A model generated the notes under the pieces. It made no database searches and was not told the origin of the DNA. It saw only the letters and a list, made by a program, of their open reading frames with translations. A stretch of DNA of 64,000 nucleotides, from NCBI RefSeq assembly GCF_004006295.1, contig NZ_CP026095.1:2528001-2592000 (forward strand), written 5' to 3'. The position numbers and the translations under genes were made by a program. The DNA comes from Peribacillus asahii. GTDB lineage: Bacteria > Bacillota > Bacilli > Bacillales > DSM-1321. The stretch's first letter is position 1; each line of letters opens with the position of its first letter. Shown here piece after piece: positions 39,811 to 64,000 of this stretch.

Positions 39811-41127
39811 TTAGGCTGATTCGTAAATCTCAATGAAGGCTTCTTTTTCTTTTTTCCAATTATATTTTTCACGAGCATGTAAACAATTTACACTCATTCG
39901 CTCGCGAACTTCGGGATGATTCAATAAATAATTGACACCTTCAGCAATGGATGCCGGCTCATGTGAATCAACACAAACACCAATTTTCTCCTCTTCTACA
40001 ACTTTCTGAATTTCCGGAAAACTACAAGCGATAACAGGCACTCCGCTCATCATATATTCAAACAGCTTATTAGAAGAGGCTGAATAATGATTGAAACAAA
40101 CATTGTTTAATACTTGAAATCCTAGGTAAGCATGCTTCGTATAATGAAGAAGTTCATCCACCGGTACTTTCGGAATAAACTTAATACGATGTTCAAGATT
40201 TCGTTCCGCAACCATATTGACTAACTCTGGCTTTAGCCGACCATCGCCAATGAACACAACCGTACCTCTTTCCATCATCGGAACCGCTTCAACAATCTTC
40301 TCTAACCCTCGTCCCGTTTGGATGCCCCCTTGATACAAGAGAATCGGTTCATCTTGTTCAATTTGCAATAATTCTGCCAAATTAATAGCTGAGCTTTTCT
40401 CAGGGTTAGTTGGAATCGGGTAATTATGAACAACATTCGGATAATGTCCATAACGATCATCATGATATTTAGCACGCGTATGATTTTCGGTAATGATTTC
40501 ATCAACGAACCATAGCAAAACTCGTTCCATGATGCCGTAAATAGGACTGTTATATCCCGTTCGACTCGTTTGGACTTCATGAGAATCATAAATGAGCTTT
40601 TTACGGCGAAACCACTTAGCTGAGAGTACACCTTGCATAAGCGTGTTTAAATCATTCGAGTGATAGAAATCATATTTCTTTTTTCGACCATACCGCACCA
40701 TTTGGCTAAAAATATAACCTCGAACCATTAATGTTGGAATTTTTGTTTTCGTTAGTGCAAAGATCAAGATTCCTGCTAAAGCAAGCAAACTAAAATAGAT
40801 GGTTACTCCAAACCAATTTGTAATCACTTCAAGATTCAATAAAATATTGAAAGTAATTAAAAACAGAAGCAGCATTTCAATTTTTTTTTTCTTAACTTTT
40901 TTAATGAAACGAATGACACGAAGAAGTGAATTCATTCGATTATTAACTCGGATAATCCGAAAACCGTTTGGATGCTGCTCCTCTTTTGCTAACTGTTCAT
41001 CTTTCCAATTATGAATCGCAATTAAATCTACGTCATAGCCAACTTCCGTTAATGCCGAGCATTCTCTAAGCACCCTGGCATCATTTGTGAAGTGGTTCCA
41101 AACAAACATGCATACTTTTTTAGACAT
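39811..41127 (-). CDS. Glycosyltransferase, GT4-like, membrane-anchored
   Basis: A 438-residue retaining GT-B transferase. The N-terminal acceptor domain begins VCMFVWNHFTNDARVLRE; a pair of hydrophobic helices (about 90-140, LLLFLITFNILLNLEV and LALAGILIFAL) anchors it at the membrane. The C-terminal donor domain has LYQGGIQTGRGLEKIVEA and a late E-x7-E-type loop (SNKLFEYMMSGVPVIA). I chose the start at 41127, which follows TTGGAGG. It ends 42 bp before wecC and starts 22 bp after the next GT, so the three form an operon. Confidence 0.88.
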   Translation of the reverse strand: MSKKVCMFVWNHFTNDARVLRECSALTEVGYDVDLIAIHNWKDEQLAKEEQHPNGFRIIRVNNRMNSLLRVIRFIKKVKKKKIEMLLLFLITFNILLNLEVITNWFGVTIYFSLLALAGILIFALTKTKIPTLMVRGYIFSQMVRYGRKKKYDFYHSNDLNTLMQGVLSAKWFRRKKLIYDSHEVQTSRTGYNSPIYGIMERVLLWFVDEIITENHTRAKYHDDRYGHYPNVVHNYPIPTNPEKSSAINLAELLQIEQDEPILLYQGGIQTGRGLEKIVEAVPMMERGTVVFIGDGRLKPELVNMVAERNLEHRIKFIPKVPVDELLHYTKHAYLGFQVLNNVCFNHYSASSNKLFEYMMSGVPVIACSFPEIQKVVEEEKIGVCVDSHEPASIAEGVNYLLNHPEVRERMSVNCLHAREKYNWKKEKEAFIEIYESA

Positions 41128-41148
41128 CTTAGCCTCCAAGAATATGAT

Positions 41149-53532: not shown

Positions 53533-54500
53533 TCACACAGTGATAACGACTTTTCCTTGAGCGTGTCCTTCTTCAAAATACTTGAAAGCTTCGGGAACTT
53601 CACTCAACTTATATTCTCTATCGATAACAGGTTTTACTTTACCAGCCTCAAGAAGTTCTTTCATAAAAATCAGATCTTTTTGGTTTGGCCTTTGCAAAAA
53701 GCTCCCCATTTTCTTTCTCCCGGTTATTGAAATCCAAGGCCCCAGAACCATGACTTGGAACATTTGAGCCCCGGAACCTCCGACGTGAACAAAAGTTCCT
53801 TTTGGACTTAATGCACGCTTATACACTGAAATCGGTTGATATCCATTAGCAGCAAGAATCAGGTCATAACGCTCCGCTTTTTTGGTAAAATCTTCTTTCA
53901 TATAATCAATGACATGATCTGCACCAATCGATCGCACAATGTTTACATTTCTCGTACTGCACACTCCAGTTACCTCAGCCCCGAATGATTTAGCAATCTG
54001 TACTGCGAAAGTTCCCACACCGCCAGAGGCACCATAAATCAAAACCTTTTGCCCAGCTTGAATCTTGCCTTTATCCCGTAGACTCTGTAGAGCCGTGACT
54101 GCCGCCATAGGTACTGCAGCAGCTTCCTCAAAAGACATATTAGATGGTTTTGGTACTAATGCATTTTCGGGAACAGATACATATTCGGCAAAACCACCCC
54201 AACCACAACCAGATAGGTCTCCAAAAACCTCATCACCTGGTTGAAACTGCTTAACGTTTGTCCCAACCGCTTCCACCCGACCTGCTATATCACCCCGGGT
54301 ATGGAGTATTTTGGTTTAAGAAGACCAAAAGCAAAGCGGGCTAAAAACGGTTCCCCTTTCAAAAGAACCAGGTTACCGTAGTTGATCGATGCTGCATGAA
54401 CTTTTACCAATACTTGATTATCCTTAGGAATAGGTTTTTCGACCTCTTTTAATTTAAGAATATCAGGTGGACCATATTTGTTATAAACAATAGCTTTCAT
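53533..54500 (-). pseudogene. Zinc-free quinone oxidoreductase-type dehydrogenase, frameshifted
   Basis: A medium-chain NADPH:quinone reductase gene of about 322 codons in two frames. The N-terminal frame (start 54500 after AGGAGGGAG) reads MKAIVYNKYGPPDIL and HAASINYGN, then stops at PGVI. The C-terminal frame continues with AGRVEAVGTNVKQFQPGDEV, has the NADP loop YGASGGVGTFAVQIA, and ends at 53533. One base missing after GGGGT near 54286 would restore PG-V-DIAG. There is no zinc ligand set. It may be a real null allele or a read error. Confidence 0.87.
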
Positions 54501-54721
54501 AATTCTCCCTCCTAATTTACTTTGAATTAATCAATTTATCTCATTTAAAATAATAAATATCACGAAAGAAACGAAAAAAGACCCTAAAATTAAAAGATAT
54601 TCAAGACTGGAGTCGCTAAAAAATTATTTAACATATCTTTTAATATAGTGCTTTACTCATTTTTACAATCTATACATACGTAAAATCCCTATCCTTTTTG
54701 TAGATAGTGCACTATCGGTAA

Positions 54722-54757
54722 TAAAAAAATCCCCTCAGAATATCAGTCTGAGAGGAT
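54722..54757 (-). terminator. Intrinsic terminator, gene upstream missing
   Basis: ATCCTCTCAGA and TCTGAGGGGAT (one wobble) pair on the minus strand at 54747-54757 and 54729-54739, then a T run. The DNA just upstream (54760-54875) has no gene, only a decayed sigma-54 promoter. Confidence 0.75.
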
Positions 54758-54808
54758 ATAAAAATGTTCTAAATCTACTCTATCAGCGCCTCGATTATTC
54801 ATTAATAA

Positions 54809-54824
54809 GGCAAGTTCCATGCTA
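54809..54824 (-). promoter_or_regulatory. Decayed sigma-54 promoter copy
   Basis: TAGCATGGAACTTGCC keeps the -12 GC and the spacing but has AG where the -24 GG should be. Upstream bases (TTTAGGGTTTTG and TTGCGA) match the flank of the promoter at 58981. It has no gene before the next terminator. Confidence 0.55.
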
Positions 54825-54875
54825 ACTAAACATACATCAAAACCCTAAAATTCTCGCAAGAATGAGAGTTTAATA

Positions 54876-54922
54876 GCAAAAAAATAGATCATACACAAGA
54901 AACTCCCTGGCATGATCTATTT
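54876..54922 (-). terminator. Intrinsic terminator of the fadF-like gene
   Basis: AAATAGATCAT/ATGATCTATTT (54882-54892 and 54912-54922) and a T run on the minus strand, 44 bp after the stop. Confidence 0.8.
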
Positions 54923-54965
54923 TCTTACGTTCTTTTCTTGCTAATTAAGTTTATTATTCTATAAA

Positions 54966-57044
54966 TCACAATGCTTTTTCCAAAATTTCAACGATGTCAT
55001 AATTTTCTACTGTCCCCTCAACTTCTTTTGCCTTTACTCCATCACTAATCATCGTTAAGCAGTATGGACAACCACTTCCAATCATTGTTGGTTTTGTCTC
55101 AAGAAGTTGTTCTGTTCTTGCAATGTTAATCCGTGTTCCAGTATTCTCTTCCGTCCACATCATACCACCGCCAGCTCCACAGCACATAGCATTTTCGCGG
55201 TTGCGGCCAGCTTCAACAAGTTTTACACCTGGAATCGCTTTTAAGATTTCACGAGGCGGATCATAGACTGTATTATAGCGCCCTAAATAACAGGAGTCAT
55301 GGTAAGTGATGACCTCATTCAATTCTTTTGTGAATTTTATTTTTCCTTCTTTGATCCACTGATCCAACAATTCTGTATGATGATATACTTCTGCTTCAAG
55401 ACCAAATTCCGGGTACTCATTTTTCAACGTATTATAGGCATGTGGATCCATCGTTACGATTTTCTTCACATTATGCTTTTGGAATGTTTCAATATTGGCA
55501 TTGGCCAATTCCTGGAATAAAAATTCATTTCCGAGTCTTCGTGGTGTATCACCTGAGTTTTTCTCTTTATTCCCCAGAATAGCAAATGAAATGCCTGCCA
55601 CATTCATGATACGGGCAAATGACTGGGCAATCTTTTGACTACGGTTATCATAGGAACCCATGGAGCCGACAAAGAATAAATATTCAAACTCTTCTCCGGA
55701 CTTCTCCATTTCTTTAACAGTTGGAACATGAATATCCTCGCGTCCTTCACGCCAATCTCCACGTTCTTTTCGATTAAGTCCCCACGGATTTCCCTGCCGT
55801 TCGATATTTGTAATTGCACGCTGAGCATCAGGATTCATTTTTCCTTCTGTTAAGACAAGATAACGGCGTAGATCGATAATTTTATCTACATGCTCATTCA
55901 TCACCGGGCATTGATCTTCACAGTTACGACATGTCGTACATGCCCAAATCTCTTCTTCTGTAATGACATCTCCAATTAAACTCACACCTTCGCTCGCTGC
56001 TGCTACTTCCTGAAACCCAGCCTCAGCTAAAGCTAATTGATTCCCTTTTGTGCTTTTAAAAGCAAAAGCCGGCATCCACGGTTCTCTAGAAGTAACCGCT
56101 GCTCCTTTTTCTGTCAAGTGATTCCTCATCTTCACAATCAGATCCATTGGAGATAACGTTTTTCCCGTTCCTGAAGCGGGGCACATATTCGTGCATCGTC
56201 CACATTCTGCACATGCATACAGATCAATCAGCTGATGCTGAGTAAAATTTTCAATTTTCCCGACACCAAATTCTTCAGCCGTCTCATCCTCAAAATCAAT
56301 CTTCCTTAACTTCCCAACAGGTCCGCTTTTCTTAAAAAAGATATTGACCATGGCAAATAACTCATGAAATTGCTTGGATTGTGGGACAAACACCAGAAAT
56401 GTGAAGACCGTTAACATATGAACCCACCAAAATACGTAGAACAACACAGTTCCTGCGGTTGATCCAATGCCAGCAAATAATAACGCAATAGCACCAGAAA
56501 ATGGGGCATAGGCCAGATTCGGTTCATGATCTAACATAATTACTTCGAATCCTAATGTAAGCAAGATGGATAAGGTTAGCGTACATAAAGCGATATAGAC
56601 AAAAGCAGCTTTACCATCACGCTTCCATTGCAATCGCTTTAACTTTTCCCCATAACGGCGGTAAAATCCATATACGACAGCTAACAGCATAAGGAATGTA
56701 GCCCACTCCTGCAGAAGACTGAAATATTTATGCCCCTCACCAAAAGGAAATTCATAGCCTTTAATAAATCCTTTTATGATAAGTTCTATGAGTCCTATTT
56801 GAATGATAAAAAAGGTATAAAATAATACTAGATGCATCAAACCGCTTTTCTTGTCTTTAAATAATTTGGACTGACCAAAACCATTGATTAATATCAGATT
56901 GATTCGTTCTTTAAGGTTTGGTTCAAACTCAGCTTTTTTGCCAAGCTTGATAAATAAATAACGGGTATATACAAGATTGACAAACAAATATGCTGCATAT
57001 CCAGCCACAGCTAGGAAAACAAGTAAATTCAACAATGATAACAT
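54966..57044 (-). CDS. fadF: FadF-like membrane Fe-S oxidoreductase (electron acceptor for acyl-CoA dehydrogenases)
   Basis: The 692-residue protein resembles B. subtilis FadF/YwjF: about 260 residues with five or six membrane helices of the nitrate-reductase-gamma type, then two 4Fe-4S motifs (CAECGRCTNMCPASG and CTTCRNCEDQCPVM), then two CCG domains (HDSCYLGRYN, AMCCGAGGG). It passes electrons from acyl-CoA dehydrogenation to the quinone pool. The start at 57044 follows TTGGAGGG; the frame extends upstream without a ribosome site. It is downstream of the MaoC and enoyl-CoA hydratase genes on the same strand, so it is likely part of the same transcript. Confidence 0.9.
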   Translation of the reverse strand: MLSLLNLLVFLAVAGYAAYLFVNLVYTRYLFIKLGKKAEFEPNLKERINLILINGFGQSKLFKDKKSGLMHLVLFYTFFIIQIGLIELIIKGFIKGYEFPFGEGHKYFSLLQEWATFLMLLAVVYGFYRRYGEKLKRLQWKRDGKAAFVYIALCTLTLSILLTLGFEVIMLDHEPNLAYAPFSGAIALLFAGIGSTAGTVLFYVFWWVHMLTVFTFLVFVPQSKQFHELFAMVNIFFKKSGPVGKLRKIDFEDETAEEFGVGKIENFTQHQLIDLYACAECGRCTNMCPASGTGKTLSPMDLIVKMRNHLTEKGAAVTSREPWMPAFAFKSTKGNQLALAEAGFQEVAAASEGVSLIGDVITEEEIWACTTCRNCEDQCPVMNEHVDKIIDLRRYLVLTEGKMNPDAQRAITNIERQGNPWGLNRKERGDWREGREDIHVPTVKEMEKSGEEFEYLFFVGSMGSYDNRSQKIAQSFARIMNVAGISFAILGNKEKNSGDTPRRLGNEFLFQELANANIETFQKHNVKKIVTMDPHAYNTLKNEYPEFGLEAEVYHHTELLDQWIKEGKIKFTKELNEVITYHDSCYLGRYNTVYDPPREILKAIPGVKLVEAGRNRENAMCCGAGGGMMWTEENTGTRINIARTEQLLETKPTMIGSGCPYCLTMISDGVKAKEVEGTVENYDIVEILEKAL

Positions 57045-57129
57045 TCTTTTGTCCCTCCAATGACAAACTTTTGAAGTAAATAGGAGGAAGTGAATTCCTC
57101 CCATTGCACTATTAAATTCCTGTGCCAAT

Positions 57130-57275
57130 CATGGTTTTCTTGAATTCCTCCGTATAATCACGTAGATATTCATTTGCATCTGTCCATTTTCATTGGATAT
57201 ATGTATCCAATCTTGGATACTTGCTAACGTAAAACAATTATGTTGTCCTGTGATTGAACTATTGAATGAAATATT
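57130..57275 (-). pseudogene. Decayed small ORF, copy 1
   Basis: The minus strand reads HSIVQSQDNIIVLR, then after stops and frame changes WTDANEYLRDYTEEFKKTMI with a stop. A similar decayed sequence is at 62855-62960. It probably was a short protein of about 45-50 residues between the MaoC and FadF genes. Function unknown; aromatic-rich helical ends are also seen in phasins, but this is only an impression. Confidence 0.5.
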
Positions 57276-57346
57276 CCCTCTCTGCCGTTTCTATTTCATG
57301 TTTACCGATTACTTGAGGGAATCCCTATCCTATTTCTCCTTACTTT

Positions 57347-57763
57347 CTATAGTTTCATAACGACTGCTTCTCCATCTACCACCATCTTCTGGTGCTGATT
57401 CAATACTTGCGTTTTCAACTTAATAATTTTCTTATCATCCCTTTTTTCCATTACCTCAACAGTTGCCTTAATCGTATCCCCAATTTTAACGGGAGCAGTA
57501 AACTTTAAGTTTTGGGACAAATAGATAGAATTCACTCCAGGTAGCTTCGTTCCAATAACTGTAGAAATAAAACTACCTGTTAAAAAGCCGTGGGCAATTC
57601 TTTCTTTAAAAGGTGTTTCCTTAGCAAACTCCTCATCAAGGTGAATCGGGTTAATATCGCCAGTCAGCCCAGCAAATTGAGTTATATCAGAATCTGTAAT
57701 AGTCTTAGTGAAAAATTCCATATCCCCTACTTGAATATCGTTGTACGTTAGTTCTTTTATCAT
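57347..57763 (-). CDS. MaoC-type (R)-specific enoyl-CoA hydratase
   Basis: A 138-residue hotdog protein. TDSDITQFAGLTGDINPIHLD (about 22-42) is the hydratase 2 motif with catalytic Asp and His; AHGFLTGSFIS and LKFTAPVKIGDTI are also typical. It hydrates trans-2-enoyl-CoA to (R)-3-hydroxyacyl-CoA, as PhaJ does. The start at 57763 follows AAAGGAGATG. It lies 165 bp downstream of the (S)-specific enoyl-CoA hydratase gene, so both stereochemical hydratases may be expressed from one sigma-54 promoter. Substrate chain length is not predictable. Confidence 0.9.
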   Translation of the reverse strand: MIKELTYNDIQVGDMEFFTKTITDSDITQFAGLTGDINPIHLDEEFAKETPFKERIAHGFLTGSFISTVIGTKLPGVNSIYLSQNLKFTAPVKIGDTIKATVEVMEKRDDKKIIKLKTQVLNQHQKMVVDGEAVVMKL

Positions 57764-57928
57764 TAATAAACATCTCCTTTTATTTTTATCAGAGTTATAT
57801 ATCGCAATCTTTTCAGCCCTATTTTTGTACAAAAGAAGCCAGCAAATCCTACAACGCTTTCACATTTGACTCATCTGAGGCTCGTCTTCTGACAAAGAAA
57901 ATTAAGTGAATAAAATCCGTTTCTCCAT

Positions 57929-58711
57929 TTAGCTCCCTGAAAACGATGCCTGTCTTTTTTCAAGAAAAGCTTTCGTTCCTTCTACCTTGTCTTCTGTTCC
58001 ATACAAAAAGGCTTGGGCTAAGGTTTCAATCAGTAATCCAGTATCCATATCAACCTCAAAACCTCGATTAACAACAAGCTTAGCCATTTGAACAGCAAGC
58101 GGTCCTTTTGCCAATATTCGTTCAGCCTTTTCACAGACAGCATCCATCAATTCCTCTAATGGAACCACGTCTGACACTAAACCAATCGCTTTCGCCTCAC
58201 CCGCGGAAATGAATTCCCCTGTTAAAATCATATTCATCGCTCGACCCTTACCGATGATTCTCGTTAATCGCTGCGTCCCGCCAGCACCCGGGATAACCGA
58301 TAAATTCAACTCAGGTAAACCGAATTTTGCATTATCAGATGCCATCCGAATATCACAGCTCATTGCCAATTCGCTTCCACCGCCAAGAGCAAACCCATTA
58401 ATGGCGGCAATGGTTGCTTTTTTACTATTTTCAATGCGGCGATACACTTCGGTCATACTTCCATTATTGAATGCATCGATTGATTTCCTAGTCGTAAGCT
58501 GGTTAATATCAGCTCCCGCTGCAAACGCCTTATCACCAACTCCGGTAAAAACAATAACTCCTATTTCCTTATCATTCTCTAACTCTTCCAATGCAGATAA
58601 GATTTCCGTAACCGTTTGATTATTCAGGGCGTTTCTTACTTCAGGACGATTAATTTTAATAATGCCAATTTGATTTTCCTTTTCAAGCAATAGATTTTGA
58701 TAGACCATCAT
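57929..58711 (-). CDS. Enoyl-CoA hydratase/isomerase (crotonase family)
   Basis: A 260-residue crotonase. AFAAGADINQL (about 62-72) and NGFALGGGSELAMSCD (about 104-119) form the CoA oxyanion hole and first catalytic Glu; LPELNLSVIPGAGGTQRL (about 136-153) has the second Glu. Both catalytic Glu are thus present, as in true hydratases. It adds water to trans-2-enoyl-CoA in beta-oxidation. AGGAGG precedes two consecutive ATG codons. It lies downstream of a sigma-54 promoter and a decayed acyl-CoA dehydrogenase, upstream of MaoC and fadF. Confidence 0.92.
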   Translation of the reverse strand: MMVYQNLLLEKENQIGIIKINRPEVRNALNNQTVTEILSALEELENDKEIGVIVFTGVGDKAFAAGADINQLTTRKSIDAFNNGSMTEVYRRIENSKKATIAAINGFALGGGSELAMSCDIRMASDNAKFGLPELNLSVIPGAGGTQRLTRIIGKGRAMNMILTGEFISAGEAKAIGLVSDVVPLEELMDAVCEKAERILAKGPLAVQMAKLVVNRGFEVDMDTGLLIETLAQAFLYGTEDKVEGTKAFLEKRQASFSGS

Positions 58712-58724
58712 GAATTCCTCCTCA

Positions 58725-58954
58725 TTATTGATATTTCCGATGTAATTGGACGGAAATAATCTTCTTTTGAATTTCAGGTATCCCTTCGTAAATTCTTATA
58801 ATTCGCGCATCACGTTAACACCCATTCCACCTAGCTTTTTCTACACATGTCTTGAAGCGATCCCTTCTCTGTCCCATTTTTTCTAGTTTGGCAAATTCCT
58901 TTATCATTTTTTTCGAAAATACTCTTGTTCTTCTGTAAATGAAAAATTGAATAA
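58725..58954 (-). pseudogene. Acyl-CoA dehydrogenase remnant
   Basis: The minus strand reads an acyl-CoA dehydrogenase N-terminus, LFNFSFTEEQEYFRKK then IKEFAK, then after frame changes LGGMGVN, and last RIIRIYEGIPEIQKKIISVQ with a stop. These match the two ends of the intact enzyme at 59190 (RITQIYEGTNEIQRL). About 300 codons of the middle have been lost. An AGGAGGG site and a sigma-54 promoter stand in front of it, so it was once the first gene of the operon. Confidence 0.85.
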
Positions 58955-58980
58955 TGTAATCCCTCCTCGCTTATTAATAA

Positions 58981-58996
58981 TGCAAGTTTCATACCA
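58981..58996 (-). promoter_or_regulatory. Sigma-54 (RpoN) promoter, enoyl-CoA hydratase operon
   Basis: TGGTATGAAACTTGCA has the -24 GG and -12 GC with 10 bases between, as in TGGCAC-N5-TTGCA. It lies about 27 bp upstream of the acyl-CoA dehydrogenase remnant and is identical to the promoter at 62975. Confidence 0.8.
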
Positions 58997-59189
58997 ACAA
59001 GTATCCTTGGAAAGGATGCGCCAAAACCCTAATTTTTTTCGCAAAATTGATAATTTTCTTAAAACTGCGAAGCAAAAATGAATATTACATACTTTCTCAG
59101 CACGACGAACCGAATCAACGAGCTTAGATCTAAAATCAAAAAACAACAAACCAAACGAGACTCGCAAAACTTAGTGTAGCAAAGGCATA

Positions 59190-60338
59190 TTAATTTTCGT
59201 CAAGCACGTTTCTAGAAATGATCAATCTTTGGATTTCATTTGTTCCTTCATAAATTTGTGTAATGCGGGCATCGCGATAAAAACGCTCCACTGGATAATC
59301 GGATACATATCCCATTCCACCATGAATTTGAACCGCTTTATCTGCCACTCGATTAAAGACATCTGAGGCAAACAATTTAGCCATAGAAGACTCTTTCACT
59401 ACTTTTTTCCCTTCATCGACCATATGTGCCGCTTTTAGCATTAAATTTCTTGCCGCTTCTGTTTCCGTTGCCATATCCGCTAACATCCATTGAATCGCTT
59501 GGTTCGAAGCAATCGGTTTTCCAAATTGAATTCTTTCCTTCGCATAGGAAGCCGATAATTCAATTAGTTTTTCAGAAGATCCAACTGCTCTTGCGGCTAG
59601 CCCAATGCGGCCTTCACTAAGAATTTTTAAAGCGGCCATGTACCCCATTCCGACTTCACCGATAACGTTTTCCTCCGGAACTTCACAGTTTTCGAAAATT
59701 AATTGTGCCGTATACGAACCACGCAGACCCATTTTTTTGTCTTTTTTACCAATCGTAAAACCTGGAAAATCTTTTTCTACTAGAAAAGCCGTAATGCCCC
59801 CTTTTGCTCTTTTATCTTTATCTGTCAGTGCAAAAACCGTAAAAACATCAGCAATCGGTGCATTTGTAATAAAATGCTTTGTTCCGTTTAGAATCCATTT
59901 ATCCCCTACCTTTTCTGCTCTTGTCGATAAGTTCGTTGCGTCTGATCCTGCACCTGGCTCAGATAAAGCAAATGCCGCTGTCTTTCTGCCTGTCGCAAGC
60001 TCCGGTAAATATTTATCCTTTAAAAATGGAGAAGCTAAGCGAACTAGCCCTGTACTTCCAATACCTGTATGAGCACTAATCAACGTAGCAAATCCGTTAT
60101 GTGTTCTTCCTAGCTGCTCCAAAACCGCAGCTTTTCCAACCATTCCTAATCCGATTCCACCGTATTCTTCAGGGATACTCATTCCGAATAATCCAAGTTC
60201 TTTTGCTTGCGCGATTAAATGCTCAGGAATTCTATCCTCTTCTTCAATTTGTTGCGCGAACGGCTCTACTTCATTTTCTACAAAGTTTCTTACCATTTGT
60301 CTAATTTGCTCAATTTCTGGATTTACTGTCGTAAACAT
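59190..60338 (-). CDS. Acyl-CoA dehydrogenase
   Basis: A 382-residue flavin enzyme doing the first step of beta-oxidation. FALSEPGAGSDATNLSTRAE (FAD/substrate loop), ITNAPIADVFTVFA, and the C-terminal RFYRDARITQIYEGTNEIQR motif with the catalytic glutamate (EGTNE) are present. It resembles short/medium-chain members. It has its own sigma-54 promoter about 40 bp upstream and an AGGGGG ribosome site. FadF downstream is its likely electron acceptor together with ETF, which is not in the window. Confidence 0.93.
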   Translation of the reverse strand: MFTTVNPEIEQIRQMVRNFVENEVEPFAQQIEEEDRIPEHLIAQAKELGLFGMSIPEEYGGIGLGMVGKAAVLEQLGRTHNGFATLISAHTGIGSTGLVRLASPFLKDKYLPELATGRKTAAFALSEPGAGSDATNLSTRAEKVGDKWILNGTKHFITNAPIADVFTVFALTDKDKRAKGGITAFLVEKDFPGFTIGKKDKKMGLRGSYTAQLIFENCEVPEENVIGEVGMGYMAALKILSEGRIGLAARAVGSSEKLIELSASYAKERIQFGKPIASNQAIQWMLADMATETEAARNLMLKAAHMVDEGKKVVKESSMAKLFASDVFNRVADKAVQIHGGMGYVSDYPVERFYRDARITQIYEGTNEIQRLIISRNVLDEN

Positions 60339-60377
60339 GTCAATTCCCCCTAATAATTTGGAATACTATATACATAA

Positions 60378-60393
60378 TGCAAAAAGTGTGCCA
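60378..60393 (-). promoter_or_regulatory. Sigma-54 (RpoN) promoter of the acyl-CoA dehydrogenase
   Basis: TGGCACACTTTTTGCA matches the consensus in all key positions (-24 GG, -12 GC, 10 bases between). It lies 40-55 bp upstream of the start. The flanks differ from those of the other three copies. Confidence 0.88.
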
Positions 60394-60490
60394 AAAGGAA
60401 ATTGCTTACCTTTATCGGATTTACTTACTACTTATTCTTTGTCGATTTATATTTAAATCAACCATATAGATTACTAGCAGGTTCTCGCGT

Positions 60491-60521
60491 TTCAAAAATG
60501 AATCAACGTTTCATTTTTGAA
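60491..60521. promoter_or_regulatory. Possible enhancer site (inverted repeat)
   Basis: TTCAAAAATGAA and TTCATTTTTGAA, perfect complements around 7 bases (60491-60502 and 60510-60521), lie about 100 bp upstream of the sigma-54 promoter, a normal position for an enhancer-binding site. Confidence 0.5.
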
Positions 60522-60802
60522 TCACACGATAATTGTTGAAAAAACAAGTTTCAACTCATATTCGCCCATCTCCACGAGAACATGTCTTTGTACGATTCAA
60601 CAACTTCCTGCACAAGGTCCTTAAATTAAACAAAAAAATCCATCTGATAAGCTCCATTTCAAATAAAAATATTATATTTTTCAGCCACAGTACGTTGACT
60701 CTATATATGTTCAACTTGTTAATCCGACATAAAAACGTTTATTTGAATACGCTGTTGATGTCGACAAGTGCACTGTGGTCATCAATACATACAGAAATAT
60801 CC

Positions 60803-60941
60803 TTACCTTATTCCAGCAGCATCCGCTAAATATTCAATAAGATGCAGATAAATTGTCTCGCTCAATCCCTACTTTTATTTGAAGTAGACATCCAAGATTA
60901 GTTGTAATCATGATAGTCGCTTTTGTTTCTTTCACCTCCTT
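60803..60941 (-). pseudogene. GlcF-like C-terminal remnant
   Basis: The minus strand reads TIMITTNLGCLLQIKVGIER, which matches the CCG-domain end of GlcF (glycolate oxidase iron-sulfur subunit), then a stop and frame change, then HLIEYLADAAGIR and a stop. Only about 45 codons remain. A deletion removed the rest. No intact glycolate oxidase gene is near. Confidence 0.75.
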
Positions 60942-61020
60942 CTACAGGTTCTTTTTCAAGCTGGTGTAAAATCAACTTCATTTCCTCTAGTTCTTCTTAT
61001 TGCAGTTACAAATTCAGATA

Positions 61021-61050
61021 CAAAAAAATACACACTACTGAGTAGTGTGC
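61021..61050 (-). terminator. Intrinsic terminator of the sigma-54 regulator gene
   Basis: CACACTAC and GTAGTGTG around TCA on the minus strand, then a T run at 61022-61029. A similar hairpin is at 63089-63118. Confidence 0.75.
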
Positions 61051-61060
61051 AAATATAGTA

Positions 61061-62365
61061 TTATTTCAGATTGTACTTAGCTATTTTTCGATACAAGCTG
61101 GCAATATGTATTTTTAGTTTTTGAGCAGCTAGAGTTCGATCACCATTTGCTTCTTGTAAAGCTCGTTGGATTGCGTTTATCTCTGCACTTCTCACTTCTT
61201 CCTCTAAACTTTGCAGAGGCGTGATTTCCCTATTTTTTGGATTGGTAGACATCTGGCGTGAAAAATAGATCGTATTCATCGAAAGGGTATCTCCTTCAAC
61301 AATATTCATTCCCCTTTCAATAAAGGCCTTTAATTCACGAACATTTCCTGGCCATTCATAGTTCAAGATCCACTCTTGCAGCTTGGAATCAATGAATTTA
61401 ACGTCCAGATCAAACCTCTCATTAAAAAAATCGATAAAATAATGAGCTAATGATAGGAGATCCTCTTTTCTCTCCCGAAGTGAAGGAATTGTTAAATCGA
61501 AGACATAAAGTCGATAAAATAAATCCTGCCTAAACTTCCCTTCCTCAACAAGTTTTCCTAAGTCACGATTCGTTGCTGCAATAATACGGATATCGATATT
61601 TTTACTAACGGTTCCTCCTATGCGCTCAACCTCTTTTTCCTGAAGCACACGGAGCAGCTTTCCTTGTGCTTCATAAGGAAGTTCTGATATTTCATCAAGA
61701 AAAAGGGTACCATTCATAGCTAATTCAAACTTTCCAGGTTTTCCTTCCTTTCTTGCTCCACTAAATGCTCCGGGTTCATAGCCAAAAAGCTCTGATTCAA
61801 ATAATTCCCCCGGGATAGCTGCACAATTTATCGCAATAAAAGGATTGTTTTTCCTTCTGCTTATACCATGAATCGCTTGAGCGAATAATTCCTTTCCCGT
61901 CCCACTTTCCCCTGTCAGCAGCACAGTTGAATTACTAGTCGCAATTCGAATGGCTAATTCTTTAGCCTCCTTCATCGCCATACTATCCCCAATAATTTCC
62001 TCAAAGCTGTATTTATTTTGGTGGGGCTTTTTTTTGTTCATTTTAGCTAAATCAATCGCATGCATGAACGATACCATTTCATGATGCTCAATATCTCCAT
62101 CACGGGCTATCACCCGATAAATCTCCTGTTGATTCTGTTTCGTCACTCTAATTAAACAATTAATCCCGGAAATAACACCGAAGAAGACTTTTTTACGCCT
62201 TCGGCCATACATTCCATGGATTACATCATAAATTGGAGCCCCTAAGTAAGCACTCTTATTTATCGAAAAGTTTTCACAAAAATCTGGGCTGAGGTGAATC
62301 AGTCGCCCGCTGCCATCAACTTCAATGTATCCCCAGTCTTCTAGTAAATTTATCGTCTTCTCCAT
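61061..62365 (-). CDS. Sigma-54-dependent enhancer-binding protein
   Basis: A 434-residue transcriptional activator. The N-terminal domain (about 1-110) is PAS-like and probably senses a small ligand. The AAA+ domain has Walker A GESGTGKE (about 148-155), the sigma-54 contact loop GAFSGA (usual form GAFTGA), Walker B LFLDEISEL and NVRELKAFIE. The C-terminus has a Fis-type HTH (RTLAAQKLKIHIASLYRKI). It resembles RocR/BkdR-type regulators. The start at 62365 follows AAAGGTGAT. It is 5 bp from the MaoC gene and shares that gene's sigma-54 promoter, so it is probably autoregulated. Confidence 0.93.
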   Translation of the reverse strand: MEKTINLLEDWGYIEVDGSGRLIHLSPDFCENFSINKSAYLGAPIYDVIHGMYGRRRKKVFFGVISGINCLIRVTKQNQQEIYRVIARDGDIEHHEMVSFMHAIDLAKMNKKKPHQNKYSFEEIIGDSMAMKEAKELAIRIATSNSTVLLTGESGTGKELFAQAIHGISRRKNNPFIAINCAAIPGELFESELFGYEPGAFSGARKEGKPGKFELAMNGTLFLDEISELPYEAQGKLLRVLQEKEVERIGGTVSKNIDIRIIAATNRDLGKLVEEGKFRQDLFYRLYVFDLTIPSLRERKEDLLSLAHYFIDFFNERFDLDVKFIDSKLQEWILNYEWPGNVRELKAFIERGMNIVEGDTLSMNTIYFSRQMSTNPKNREITPLQSLEEEVRSAEINAIQRALQEANGDRTLAAQKLKIHIASLYRKIAKYNLK

Positions 62366-62370
62366 ATCAA

Positions 62371-62793
62371 TCACCTTTCCGATAATACAAAAAGAACAAC
62401 TTGTCCTTTAATTACCTCGGTTCCATTTTGATTAAAGCATGTAACCTTTTGCGTAACCCAATTTCTTTCAAGATTAACATCAATAATCGTCAATTCAGCG
62501 GTAATGACATCTCCGGCATGTACCGGATGATAATAAATCATCTCTTTTTGCAGCAATACACAAGCACGTCCCGGAAGTTTATCGGTAATCACTTGGGTAA
62601 CTAATCCCTCCACCAACATTCCAGGAACAATCGGCTGCGAATAACGATGATTCTTCCAACTATCCTCATTTCGTTGATAGATTGGATTAAAATCTTTTGT
62701 TAATTCATTGCATTGTTGAACATCGTCTTCTGTAAATATCCGTCGCAAACGGGCTATTTGTCCGATAAACAATTCCGAAGTAGATAAGTTCAT
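62371..62793 (-). CDS. MaoC-like hotdog dehydratase
   Basis: A 140-residue single hotdog protein. FTEDDVQQCNELTKDFNPIY (about 20-39) and IVPGMLVEGLVTQVI match the MaoC/FabZ fold; the usual catalytic D-x4-H pair reads DFNPIYQ, so the histidine is replaced by tyrosine and activity is uncertain. It may be a thioesterase-like or substrate-binding variant. Ribosome site AAAGGAGAG. It is the first gene of the sigma-54-dependent operon with the enhancer-binding regulator. Confidence 0.8.
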   Translation of the reverse strand: MNLSTSELFIGQIARLRRIFTEDDVQQCNELTKDFNPIYQRNEDSWKNHRYSQPIVPGMLVEGLVTQVITDKLPGRACVLLQKEMIYYHPVHAGDVITAELTIIDVNLERNWVTQKVTCFNQNGTEVIKGQVVLFVLSER

Positions 62794-62854
62794 TTATACT
62801 CTCCTTTATTCACAGACTTTTCTGCTGTATCAAAAGTAAGTTTCATAATCACAT

Positions 62855-62960
62855 AGATTTTCATTTGCATCTCTCCATTCTCATTTTATCTGTCCAATAC
62901 TTAAACGTAGAACAATCATGTTGTTTTGTGATTGATATATTGAACGGAACATTGCTCCTC
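62855..62960 (-). pseudogene. Decayed small ORF, copy 2
   Basis: An AGAGGAG site is followed by MFRSIYQSQNNMIVLRLSIG, then a stop, then RDANENLCDY. The pattern matches the sequence at 57130-57275. It sits directly behind the sigma-54 promoter, before the MaoC gene. Confidence 0.5.
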
Positions 62961-62974
62961 TTGCTTAATCATAT

Positions 62975-62990
62975 TGCAAGTTTCATACCA
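62975..62990 (-). promoter_or_regulatory. Sigma-54 (RpoN) promoter of the MaoC-regulator operon
   Basis: TGGTATGAAACTTGCA, identical to the promoter at 58981. It lies about 180 bp upstream of the MaoC start, with a decayed small ORF in between. Confidence 0.8.
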
Positions 62991-63044
62991 ACAAGTATCC
63001 TTTATAAAAAAAGACCTAGATTCAGATAATCTCGCAAAAGTGAT

Positions 63045-63083
63045 AATTTTTCGCATAATTGCGAATCGATTTTGCGAAAAATT
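63045..63083. promoter_or_regulatory. Possible enhancer sites (nested dyads)
   Basis: TTCGCATAATTGCGAA (63050-63065) is a palindrome, and AATTTTTCGCA at 63045-63055 pairs with TGCGAAAAATT at 63073-63083. Related TCGCA/TGCGA motifs occur upstream of 58981 and of 54809, as expected for sites of one activator. Confidence 0.55.
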
Positions 63084-63088
63084 ATTCA

Positions 63089-63118
63089 TAAAAAAATGCA
63101 CACTACTAGGTAGCGTAC
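63089..63118 (-). terminator. Intrinsic terminator of the L,D-transpeptidase gene
   Basis: TGTACGCTAC and GTAGTGTGCA pair on the minus strand with wobbles, followed by TTTTTTT (63089-63095). It closely resembles the terminator at 61021. Confidence 0.65.
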
Positions 63119-63187
63119 ATTAAGCTTACTTGTATAAGGCGTACCCCCAACATGTTGTACACGAAGCACAATGTAATCCCCCTTTCA

Positions 63188-64000
63188 TTATCCTCGCCAC
63201 TTGTACCTGACACCCGGATTTTTTTCACTTTCGAGTGATTCCCCTGTTAACACAAGCGGAATTCCTTCAGGCAAGGATGAAGCAGCGGGAGCATCGTCTA
63301 ATATTTTTAAAAGAGTTCCTTTTGGGACAAATGGATATAGTTCTTCAATATGGTGATTCAACAAGCGGAAGCAGCCTGCTGACACACTTCTTCCGACCGA
63401 AGAAGGCTTGTTTGTTCCATGTATGGCTACTTCTTGTTCGAGTACAATCCCTCTTGTGCCAAACGGAGAGCCTGGACCATTCGGTTCCACCACTCTTTCC
63501 GTTACATATGAAGATGAAAACGGCATTCCTTTTTTTCCTGTAGCTATAGGGTAAACAGCAATCGGTCTGCCATGAAATGAAAGTGCCAATTTGTGCACAC
63601 TCGGGTAAACGAGGATTTCCACTAGTTCTTTTCGAGCATCAAGAGGGGTACCTGCTAAAAGAAGAGTATAGCTTTGGCTCGTTCGTTTGTACGTAATTCC
63701 TTTAGGAACATATGAAATCCAGTTATTCGGATAAGGACTCGCTAACTCCTCAAGCGAAACAGGATAGCGTTTTTTTGCTTGATAAAAATGCACAATCGCG
63801 CTGTTTACAACGAGCCATTCTATATGCTTTAGATTTGTTACATCAACCGTCAGCAATGCACCATCTTTTTGAGCAATATTAGTCTCCTGCTGTGAAGCGT
63901 TTTTTTTCTTGTGCCCAGGTGTAGAATCATGTATCGCTGTAGACGCATCAACATCGTTTTCTTCCGTGAACCTATCTGTAAAGTGAAAAAAATAACGATC
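63188..64000 (-). CDS. L,D-transpeptidase, truncated by the window edge
   Basis: The frame is open from 63188 to 64000, so the N-terminus (including any signal or anchor) lies outside. The visible 270 residues have a charged linker, a helical segment (LKHIEWLVVNSAIVHFYQAK), a LysM-like or prefix region, and a YkuD domain with the catalytic motif AIHGTNKPSSVG and SVSAGCFRL (Cys). YkuD domains make 3-3 cross-links in the wall. A TTG at 63856 lacks a ribosome site, which supports the longer reading. No peptidoglycan-binding tail is present, unlike the homologue at 30505. Confidence 0.85.
   Translation of the reverse strand, partial: DRYFFHFTDRFTEENDVDASTAIHDSTPGHKKKNASQQETNIAQKDGALLTVDVTNLKHIEWLVVNSAIVHFYQAKKRYPVSLEELASPYPNNWISYVPKGITYKRTSQSYTLLLAGTPLDARKELVEILVYPSVHKLALSFHGRPIAVYPIATGKKGMPFSSSYVTERVVEPNGPGSPFGTRGIVLEQEVAIHGTNKPSSVGRSVSAGCFRLLNHHIEELYPFVPKGTLLKILDDAPAASSLPEGIPLVLTGESLESEKNPGVRYKWRG

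Follow-up and report, generated by a model that had tools for sequence, protein, structure and literature searches.

The bad-ali clusters of cyclohexanecarboxylate degradation, described from R. palustris, Aromatoleum sp. CIB and Rhodococcus, are controlled by MarR-type regulators (BadR) in Gram-negatives and by TetR-type regulators in Gram-positives. BadR responds to CoA-ester intermediates, inducers of this kind being described in two studied cases, and badK is often located elsewhere (PMC9795900, in its available part). In the CrbR system an enhancer-binding protein (EBP) and a sigma-54 promoter stand before crotonase, MaoC, acyl-CoA dehydrogenase (ACD) and electron-transfer flavoprotein (ETF) genes (PMC6615313, in part), while BkdR, GabR, SoxR and other EBPs of B. 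thuringiensis combine a PAS-type N-terminus, an AAA+ domain and a helix-turn-helix (HTH) with catabolic -24/-12 promoters (PMC4428206, in part). Here we describe a sigma-54 locus for acyl-CoA oxidation in a 64-kb stretch of the Peribacillus asahii genome (the window; 64,000 nucleotides, G000:C1:2528001-2592000). Positions below are those of the window unless another sequence is named, the features of the locus all lie on the minus strand, promoters are named by position, and G and L numbers denote genomes and loci.

The locus is like the bad-ali clusters in that AliA-, AliB-, BadH- and BadI-like proteins are encoded together at the corresponding loci of relatives. It is unlike them in its sigma-54 promoters, its EBP and the MaoC protein encoded beside the EBP (the coupled MaoC), and the window copy holds an aliB fragment only. 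It shares the general gene content of the CrbR system, but CrbR has an operator of the TGT-N10-12-ACA type, its predicted role is in butyrate/butanol synthesis, and the available part of that report describes no MaoC with Tyr for His beside the EBP (PMC6615313). The eight B. thuringiensis EBPs all have the GAFTGA loop and other targets (PMC4428206), whereas the loop here is GAFSGA. As a kind, sigma-54 control of such enzymes has precedents; judged from sequence, it would be a third regulatory plan for bad-ali-type enzymes besides MarR and TetR. In the titles and abstract openings of the literature, few of them from subscription papers, we did not find an AliA/AliB-type sigma-54 regulon, its operator or a Tyr-type MaoC partner.

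We think it likely that two sigma-54 modules make up the locus. Module A would be a trimmed copy of a Bacillaceae regulon, made up of P62975, P58981, the relic P54809, the EBP, the coupled MaoC, an enoyl-CoA hydratase/crotonase (ECH), a second MaoC protein (MaoC1) and a FadF-like protein. Module B would be a duplicated ACD gene together with a promoter and an operator that belong to another EBP. The anatomy, operator conservation, duplication, deletions, selection and Tyr-for-His exchange on which this reading draws were computed, and are given below.

The original prediction had placed three good -24/-12 promoters and a decayed fourth in this locus, and our scan agrees. With a weight matrix that approximates the published consensus, exactly three sites in the window score at least 17.4, namely 58981-58997, 60378-60394 and 62975-62991, against a mean of 0.1 expected from 60 Markov-1 resamplings of the window. 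P58981 and P62975 have the same core (TTGGTATGAAACTTGCA), which is identical over 17 bases and not 16 as first reported, and P60378 has TTGGCACACTTTTTGCA. The likeness of the first two extends to their flanks (58963-59008 and 62955-63002 match at 90% over about 48 bp). The decayed copy at 54809-54825 (TTAGCATGGAACTTGCC) scores 8.2, and its similar flank, 54801-54826, matches 58973-58998 at 85%. Within 150 bp upstream there are four TCGCA/TGCGA half-sites at P62975, two at P58981, one at P54809 and none at P60378. The idea that the promoters are copies of one module is supported for P58981, P62975 and P54809, and not for P60378, which was duplicated from elsewhere. P62975 is predicted to drive a maoC-EBP transcript; P58981 precedes an aliB pseudogene and the ECH, MaoC1 and FadF genes. 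The genome (4.89 Mb) has rpoN, whose absence would have spoken against these sites, at G000:C1:4323282-4323413 (PF00309, E 3.3e-15). A sigma-70 scan found seven sites where shuffles gave 19, one weak match overlapping P60378. A further -24/-12-like site at 40364-40380 (TTGGCAGAATTATTGCA, score 17.0) lies within the open reading frame (ORF) 39811-41139. The segment that holds P54809, 54636-54870, is absent from P. asahii MA001 (G021), whose locus L041 aligns on either side of it.

The TCGCA-N4-TGCGA dyad earlier proposed as the likely operator is conserved upstream of module A promoters, which supports the proposal. At P62975 it forms a composite operator, 63030-63079, in which an inner dyad (TTCGCAATTATGCGAA, 63050-63065), ending 58 bp upstream of the -24 box, is accompanied by outer half-sites. 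P58981 has a partly decayed copy at 59036-59071, with one outer half-site and an inner dyad (TTCGCAGTTTTAAGAA) that has two mismatches and is identical in P. asahii MA001. We compared 33 promoters that precede aliB-, badI-, etfB- or maoC-type operons; they come from 30 sequences, namely the window, the loci and the copies in P. asahii. TTCGCA-N4-TGCGAA with at most two mismatches occurs at 29 of them and at one of 27 controls, where it lies only 4 bp from the box. The best placement falls 56-60 bp upstream of the -24 box at 29 of the 33, and 27 have both the distance and the match. The controls include 17 places in the window genome, drawn from the matches listed, mostly on the forward strand and with the window's own sites not among them. 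Ten promoter-like places, mostly intragenic, were left out of the 33 (L027, L030, L047, L050, two in L051, L052, L054 and two in L061), as were L053 (the same locus as L025) and L044 (the same as L024). The exceptions in distance are L033, the second promoter of L046, L065 and L067, and those in mismatches are L045, the second promoters of L046 and L048, and L065; L065 is a doubtful pick, its promoter preceding none of the labelled genes.

Searching the whole genome with the exact dyad, a check that had been suggested, returned three places: 63050-63065 in the window, 1287530 in a paralogous locus, and G000:C1:2226857. At two of them a module A promoter follows the end of the dyad after 58-59 bp. 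We rejected the third, at G000:C1:2226857, as an operator: it is inside a coding sequence, and no site of at least 11.5 occurs in the surrounding 3 kb.

The presumptive reader of this operator is the EBP encoded at 61061-62374 (with a further in-frame ATG at 62365), which has a weak PAS-like N-terminus, an AAA+ sigma-54 interaction domain (PF00158, E 2.8e-69), an AAA lid and a Fis-type HTH (PF02954, E 2.3e-8). Its gene is followed on the 3' side by a terminator-like hairpin (61029-61051). The PAS assignment combines a Pfam match of 17.3 bits, below the cut-off of 22.6, with the predicted strand order; a sub-threshold match recurs in three of four scanned orthologues, with none in L026. The AlphaFold model is poor (mean pLDDT 59, 11-row alignment), and its Foldseek matches are AAA+ sigma-54 activators. 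The window EBP is 82-86% identical to those of L045, L046, L048, L056 and L059 and 70% identical to its paralogue at 1.286 Mb in the same genome. In the EBP tree the window and P. asahii rows belong to a seven-row clade (support 96/100) with Bacillus sp. V3B, EB600, B15-48, Niallia and a Thermoactinomycetaceae metagenome-assembled genome, apart from the 1.286 Mb paralogue. The EBP of L031/G018, which is shorter and has an in-frame stop, was left out of the alignment, its MaoC being kept in the MaoC alignment. At their HTH ends the window EBP and the paralogue have 34 of 41 residues identical, in a comparison made without L051, L061 and L068 (out of register) and L063 (incomplete).

The maoC-EBP pair is found at all 12 loci examined from the EBP search and at 24 of 25 from a MaoC-profile search of the named genome collection, counts that leave out the homologous EBPs of G004, G012 and G030. 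The exception is L068, where the MaoC before the EBP is broken and reads in two frames. Together with L022, L026, L027 and L030 this makes 29 pair loci, L068 not among them. After the pair, BadI-, AliA- and BadH-like genes follow at 25 of the 29 and an AliB-like gene at 21, so that 21 loci have all four. The four loci with none of these genes after the pair are L044, which is the trimmed copy from P. asahii, and L055, L065 and L066, which stop soon after the EBP gene. A promoter scoring at least 16 is present at 27 loci. The window genome itself has an intact locus at 1.286 Mb, of the maoC-EBP-aliB-badI-aliA-badH-SDR type (SDR, short-chain dehydrogenase/reductase), with the same operator. Among 299 genomes of the order, the MaoC profile matches nine and an AliA homologue occurs in nine, and these are the same nine.

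The NCBIfam families that match best at L022, L048 and L067 are TIGR03207 (AliB, cyclohexanecarboxyl-CoA dehydrogenase), TIGR03208 (AliA, cyclohexanecarboxylate-CoA ligase) and, for the BadH-like protein, TIGR03206 (2-hydroxycyclohexanecarboxyl-CoA dehydrogenase); the fourth protein is a crotonase close to MenB and BadI. We considered MenB for this protein. With the badI model the genome's own BadI-like protein scores 349 bits and the presumed housekeeping MenB 318, and the better menB match of the genome is a separate one at 3982408, with neighbours that look men-like by eye. The menB score of the BadI-like protein is nevertheless over the cut-off, and for this reason we go no further than the label BadI-like. 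These homologues make a cyclohexanecarboxylate pathway the likely assignment for the relatives' operons. The ordinary fatty-acid degradation first proposed for the locus is not supported as stated, as the orthologous operons encode AliB-, BadI-, AliA- and BadH-like enzymes.

The promoter P60378 tells a different story. It belongs to a segment, 59189-60942, that is 90% identical in DNA to L036:9030-10835 (G000:C1 about 1265030-1266835) and holds an ACD gene, 59190-60338, whose protein is 99% identical to the copy at G000:C1:1265686-1266831. Upstream of the promoter, at 60491-60521, lies a distinct operator, TTCAAAAATGAA-N7-TTCATTTTTGAA, and the pair is identical at the source locus L036; L037 (G003) and L038 (G018) likewise have two TTCAAAAATGAA or TTCAATAATGAA elements upstream of the promoter. 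P60378 has five mismatches to the module A dyad. At each of L036, L037 and L038 an EBP gene, 570-578 codons long, lies upstream of the dehydrogenase gene, its end 0.2-4.3 kb away (G000:C1:1259676-1261388 at the source). These EBPs are 54-70% identical to one another and have PAS and HTH_50 domains, against HTH_8 in the window EBP. Given a different operator and an EBP of another type near the homologous loci, P60378 most likely belongs to the regulon of another activator.

The original prediction had a single sigma-54 fatty-acid regulon, in which the EBP at 61061-62374 controls all three promoters. Three strong promoters within 4 kb, window enzymes of the acyl-CoA oxidation type, and the predicted sigma-54 control of such COGs in Bacilli (PMC12316311, in its available part) are what one would expect of it. 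We reject one activator for all three, since P60378 has no half-site and has its own operator, which is common to the source segment and two other genomes near another EBP type, and the AliA-, AliB- and BadH-like genes of the orthologous operons also go against a fatty-acid regulon; as a whole it seems to us highly improbable.

Some further observations concern the module B segment and its source. A stretch of 68 bp at 60929-60996 is 94% identical to L036:6099-6166 and continues the segment after an internal gap that, measured on the source, is about 3 kb. L036:3676-18642 (G000:C1 about 1.2597-1.2746 Mb) is another sigma-54 locus with the TTCAAAAATGAA operator and a 570-residue PAS-EBP. After the EBP it has, as judged by eye, genes for a GntR-like regulator, a FAD-linked oxidase, an iron-sulphur (Fe-S) protein, an ACD, a major facilitator superfamily transporter and a ligase, then two 3-hydroxyacyl-CoA dehydrogenase-like genes, an ACD, a thiolase and a crotonase.

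The remaining genes and remnants of module A suggest how it came to its present form. P58981 is followed by a fused pseudogene. Its first part, 58805-58969, is the N-terminal part (about 55 codons) of an aliB-like gene, 60% identical to residues 2-61 of the L048 AliB-like protein (E 1e-15). Its second, 58728-58814, is the C-terminal remnant of another ACD (79% over 29 residues, E 5e-10). In the window genome and in P. asahii MA001 alike, every frame of the pseudogene's strand is interrupted by stops. The fusion is a deletion joint; its two sides correspond to sites in G031 that are separated by about 6 kb (L026: 8763-8977 and up to 2658). ECH (57929-58711) follows the joint. MaoC1 (57347-57832, with an intact D-x-N-P-x-H motif) and the FadF-like membrane Fe-S oxidoreductase (54966-57128, with Fer4 and CCG domains, a presumed electron outlet from ETF) would complete the transcript. 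The first 16 codons of etfB survive at 62817-62864, between P62975 and maoC (E 0.001-0.004). A probable second etfB start remnant, ten residues with E 0.4 on their own, lies at 57144-57173, between MaoC1 and FadF and inside a repeat of about 120-130 bp (57154-57283 against 62845-62961; 75%, E 5e-18); L056 and L059 have, by eye, an EtfB-like gene after MaoC1. In a search of 54000-63300 for the four bad-ali genes, AliA gave no match below E 0.4 and BadH none up to E 1, and with BadI the crotonase paralogue came up at 36% identity, leaving the aliB fragment as the only trace of them.

In L046 and L048 (EBP identity 84-86%) the order is a sigma-54 promoter, two ETF genes, an ACD gene, maoC and EBP, with the ETF domains confirmed in L048; L055 has the same layout as judged by gene sizes, and in all three the counterpart of P62975 precedes etfB-etfA-ACD-maoC-EBP. 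Pieced together from several relatives, the ancestral regulon would have had this as one part and as a second a sigma-54 promoter before (aliB-like)-badI-like-aliA-like-badH-like-(ACD)-ECH-SDR-maoC, followed in some by etfB or FadF. Deletions would then have taken etfBA, the ligase and the ring-cleavage genes and left two transcripts, an autoregulatory one for the EBP and one for ECH, MaoC1 and FadF. We rejected duplication of the 1.286 Mb locus within the genome as the source of the window copy: its EBP is closer to those of five relatives' loci than to the paralogue, and the tree agrees. Acquisition from outside followed by trimming is the simplest reading, and the window copy was probably acquired horizontally and then trimmed by deletion.

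It could be argued that the module is a dead relic, an unregulated deletion product decaying while a paralogue serves elsewhere, and the fused pseudogene, the two etfB stubs and the decay of P54809 and of the P58981 operator are what such a relic would show. Between the window genome and P. asahii MA001, however, dN/dS is 0.077 for the EBP, 0.090 for the coupled MaoC, 0.054 for ECH and 0.056 for FadF (MaoC1 has 0.275). These four genes are under purifying selection, and values this low indicate that selection maintains the remaining genes. The strong -24/-12 sites and the exact operator dyad of P62975 are likewise kept in both genomes, and we consider a dead relic improbable.

Several findings weigh against our composite reading. 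Half of the inner dyad of P58981 is lost, in the window and in P. asahii MA001 alike. The 33 promoters behind the operator counts were hand-chosen as homologous and are related by descent, and six of them are off the usual distance or have at least three mismatches. L056 and L066 have no promoter of at least 16. The departure of the EBP loop from GAFTGA to GAFSGA is common to 11 of 11 aligned orthologues, an exchange of Thr for Ser that is reportedly tolerated in PspF. The outside origin comes from one tree, whose branches are long and whose outgroup is distant. The AliA match of G043 is on a different contig and barely above a threshold of our own setting; the maoC-EBP locus of this genome has a ligase of just 32% identity, beside AliB-, BadI- and BadH-like genes at 63-71%. 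None of the 12 AliA, AliB, BadH and BadI scores at L022, L048 and L067 reaches its NCBIfam curated cut-off, and the BadI-like protein is over the TIGR01929 menB cut-off at all three. The AliB-like ORF is missing at four of the five loci nearest the window EBP (L045, L046, L056 and L059), L048 being the one that keeps it, which leaves the pathway label least secure just where it matters.

This last absence raises the odds that the same sigma-54 module serves an acid other than cyclohexanecarboxylate, be it linear, branched or of another cyclic type. The family scores and the menB match count in the same direction, and the AliA-like ligase also matches medium-chain fatty-acid ligase models. On the other side, the best family for the dehydrogenase, the ligase and the SDR is that of the cyclohexanecarboxylate pathway at the three scanned loci, and the BadI-like protein exceeds the presumed MenB by 31 bits with the badI model. 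Another substrate is thus a real possibility, if the less probable one.

The coupled MaoC (62371-62793), whose gene overlaps the EBP gene by 4 nt, is the most unusual component of module A. Asp and His have catalytic roles in R-hydratases. The D-x-N-P-x-H motif of the solved R-hydratases (1iq6, 5cpg, 3ir3) aligns with D-x-x-P-x-Y in the coupled MaoC, which lacks the Asp/His pair that an (R)-specific enoyl-CoA hydratase requires, Asp34 being kept and the catalytic His replaced by Tyr39. Tyr stands in this position in 29 of 29 EBP-linked MaoC rows and in all 11 EBP-linked rows of the tree set (which overlaps the 29-row and L033 sets); in L033 Tyr likewise replaces His, and Asp is Glu. His is kept in five of five other Pfam-matched MaoC proteins of the genome, MaoC1 included and the paralogue's excepted, and in four MaoC1-type rows of the relatives' alignment. 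The model of the coupled MaoC is again poor (mean pLDDT 61, 12-row alignment), with Foldseek matches to hot-dog hydratases. On these residues the coupled MaoC has probably lost its enzyme activity. Neither this exchange nor the fused pseudogene and the etfB remnants figured in the original prediction.

FapR of Bacillus is a repressor in which a hot-dog acyl-CoA sensor is fused to a DNA-binding domain. In module A a hot-dog protein that is probably inactive accompanies a sigma-54 activator, which likewise suggests an acyl-CoA sensor, and the coupled MaoC is perhaps one; unlike in FapR, the hot-dog here is a separate protein beside the activator, and a weak match to the FapR model is found for MaoC1 and not for the coupled MaoC. 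Tentatively, we imagine a two-part switch in which the Tyr-type pseudo-enzyme binds an alicyclic acyl-CoA and licenses the AAA+ ring of the EBP, a third plan for cyclohexanecarboxylate-type degradation; on balance we hold it to be unlikely.

The coupled MaoC may instead be an ordinary or altered pathway enzyme and no sensor, which we rate at least as high, with a chance not far short of even. It keeps Asp everywhere except in L033 and matches hot-dog hydratases, and six MaoC copies inside enzyme operons, away from the EBP gene, likewise have Tyr (three such rows are in the tree set). The constancy of Tyr in the EBP-linked rows, set against His in the genome's other MaoC proteins, and the position of maoC directly before the EBP gene are less easily explained for an enzyme. 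The second Tyr-type MaoC of these six loci lies between aliB-like and badI-like genes (L027:12772, L049:11218, L051:11133, L058:11219, L061:11295 and L068:4628), and is possibly a partner of the EBP-linked MaoC.

Our composite reading leads to the following picture, in which regulation, substrate, sensing and split-regulon action are predicted. An alicyclic acid would be converted to its CoA ester and an acyl-CoA intermediate sensed, a step in which the coupled MaoC, without its catalytic His, may take part. The EBP, bound at TTCGCA-N4-TGCGAA, would loop to RNA polymerase-sigma-54 and open the promoters. The window and 1.286 Mb loci would act as one split regulon, as the shared operator and the similar HTH ends suggest, with the window supplying hydratases, possibly for the BadK step, and an ETF:quinone outlet. 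The 1.286 Mb stretch (L022, L023) has no close homologue of the window ECH, which makes the latter a candidate for the hydratase step; from the pathway, it is a candidate BadK-type hydratase.

Beyond the locus, a zinc-type quinone oxidoreductase gene at 53533-54500 has an apparent interruption (a frame change) near 54276-54300, and is open over 322 residues in P. asahii MA001 (L041:4510-5478).

The signal of CrbR-type activators of acyl-CoA operons is unknown according to the available part of PMC6615313, and the pairing of an EBP with a Tyr-type MaoC makes a separate sensor subunit testable. The window illustrates that genes far downstream can come under a sigma-54 promoter through deletions, and that a sigma-54 unit from a different regulon can land between the genes of module A. 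The clusters of its relatives suggest that some Bacillaceae degrade alicyclic acids of the naphthenic-acid type, under a regulatory plan absent from the available part of the bad-ali survey (PMC9795900).

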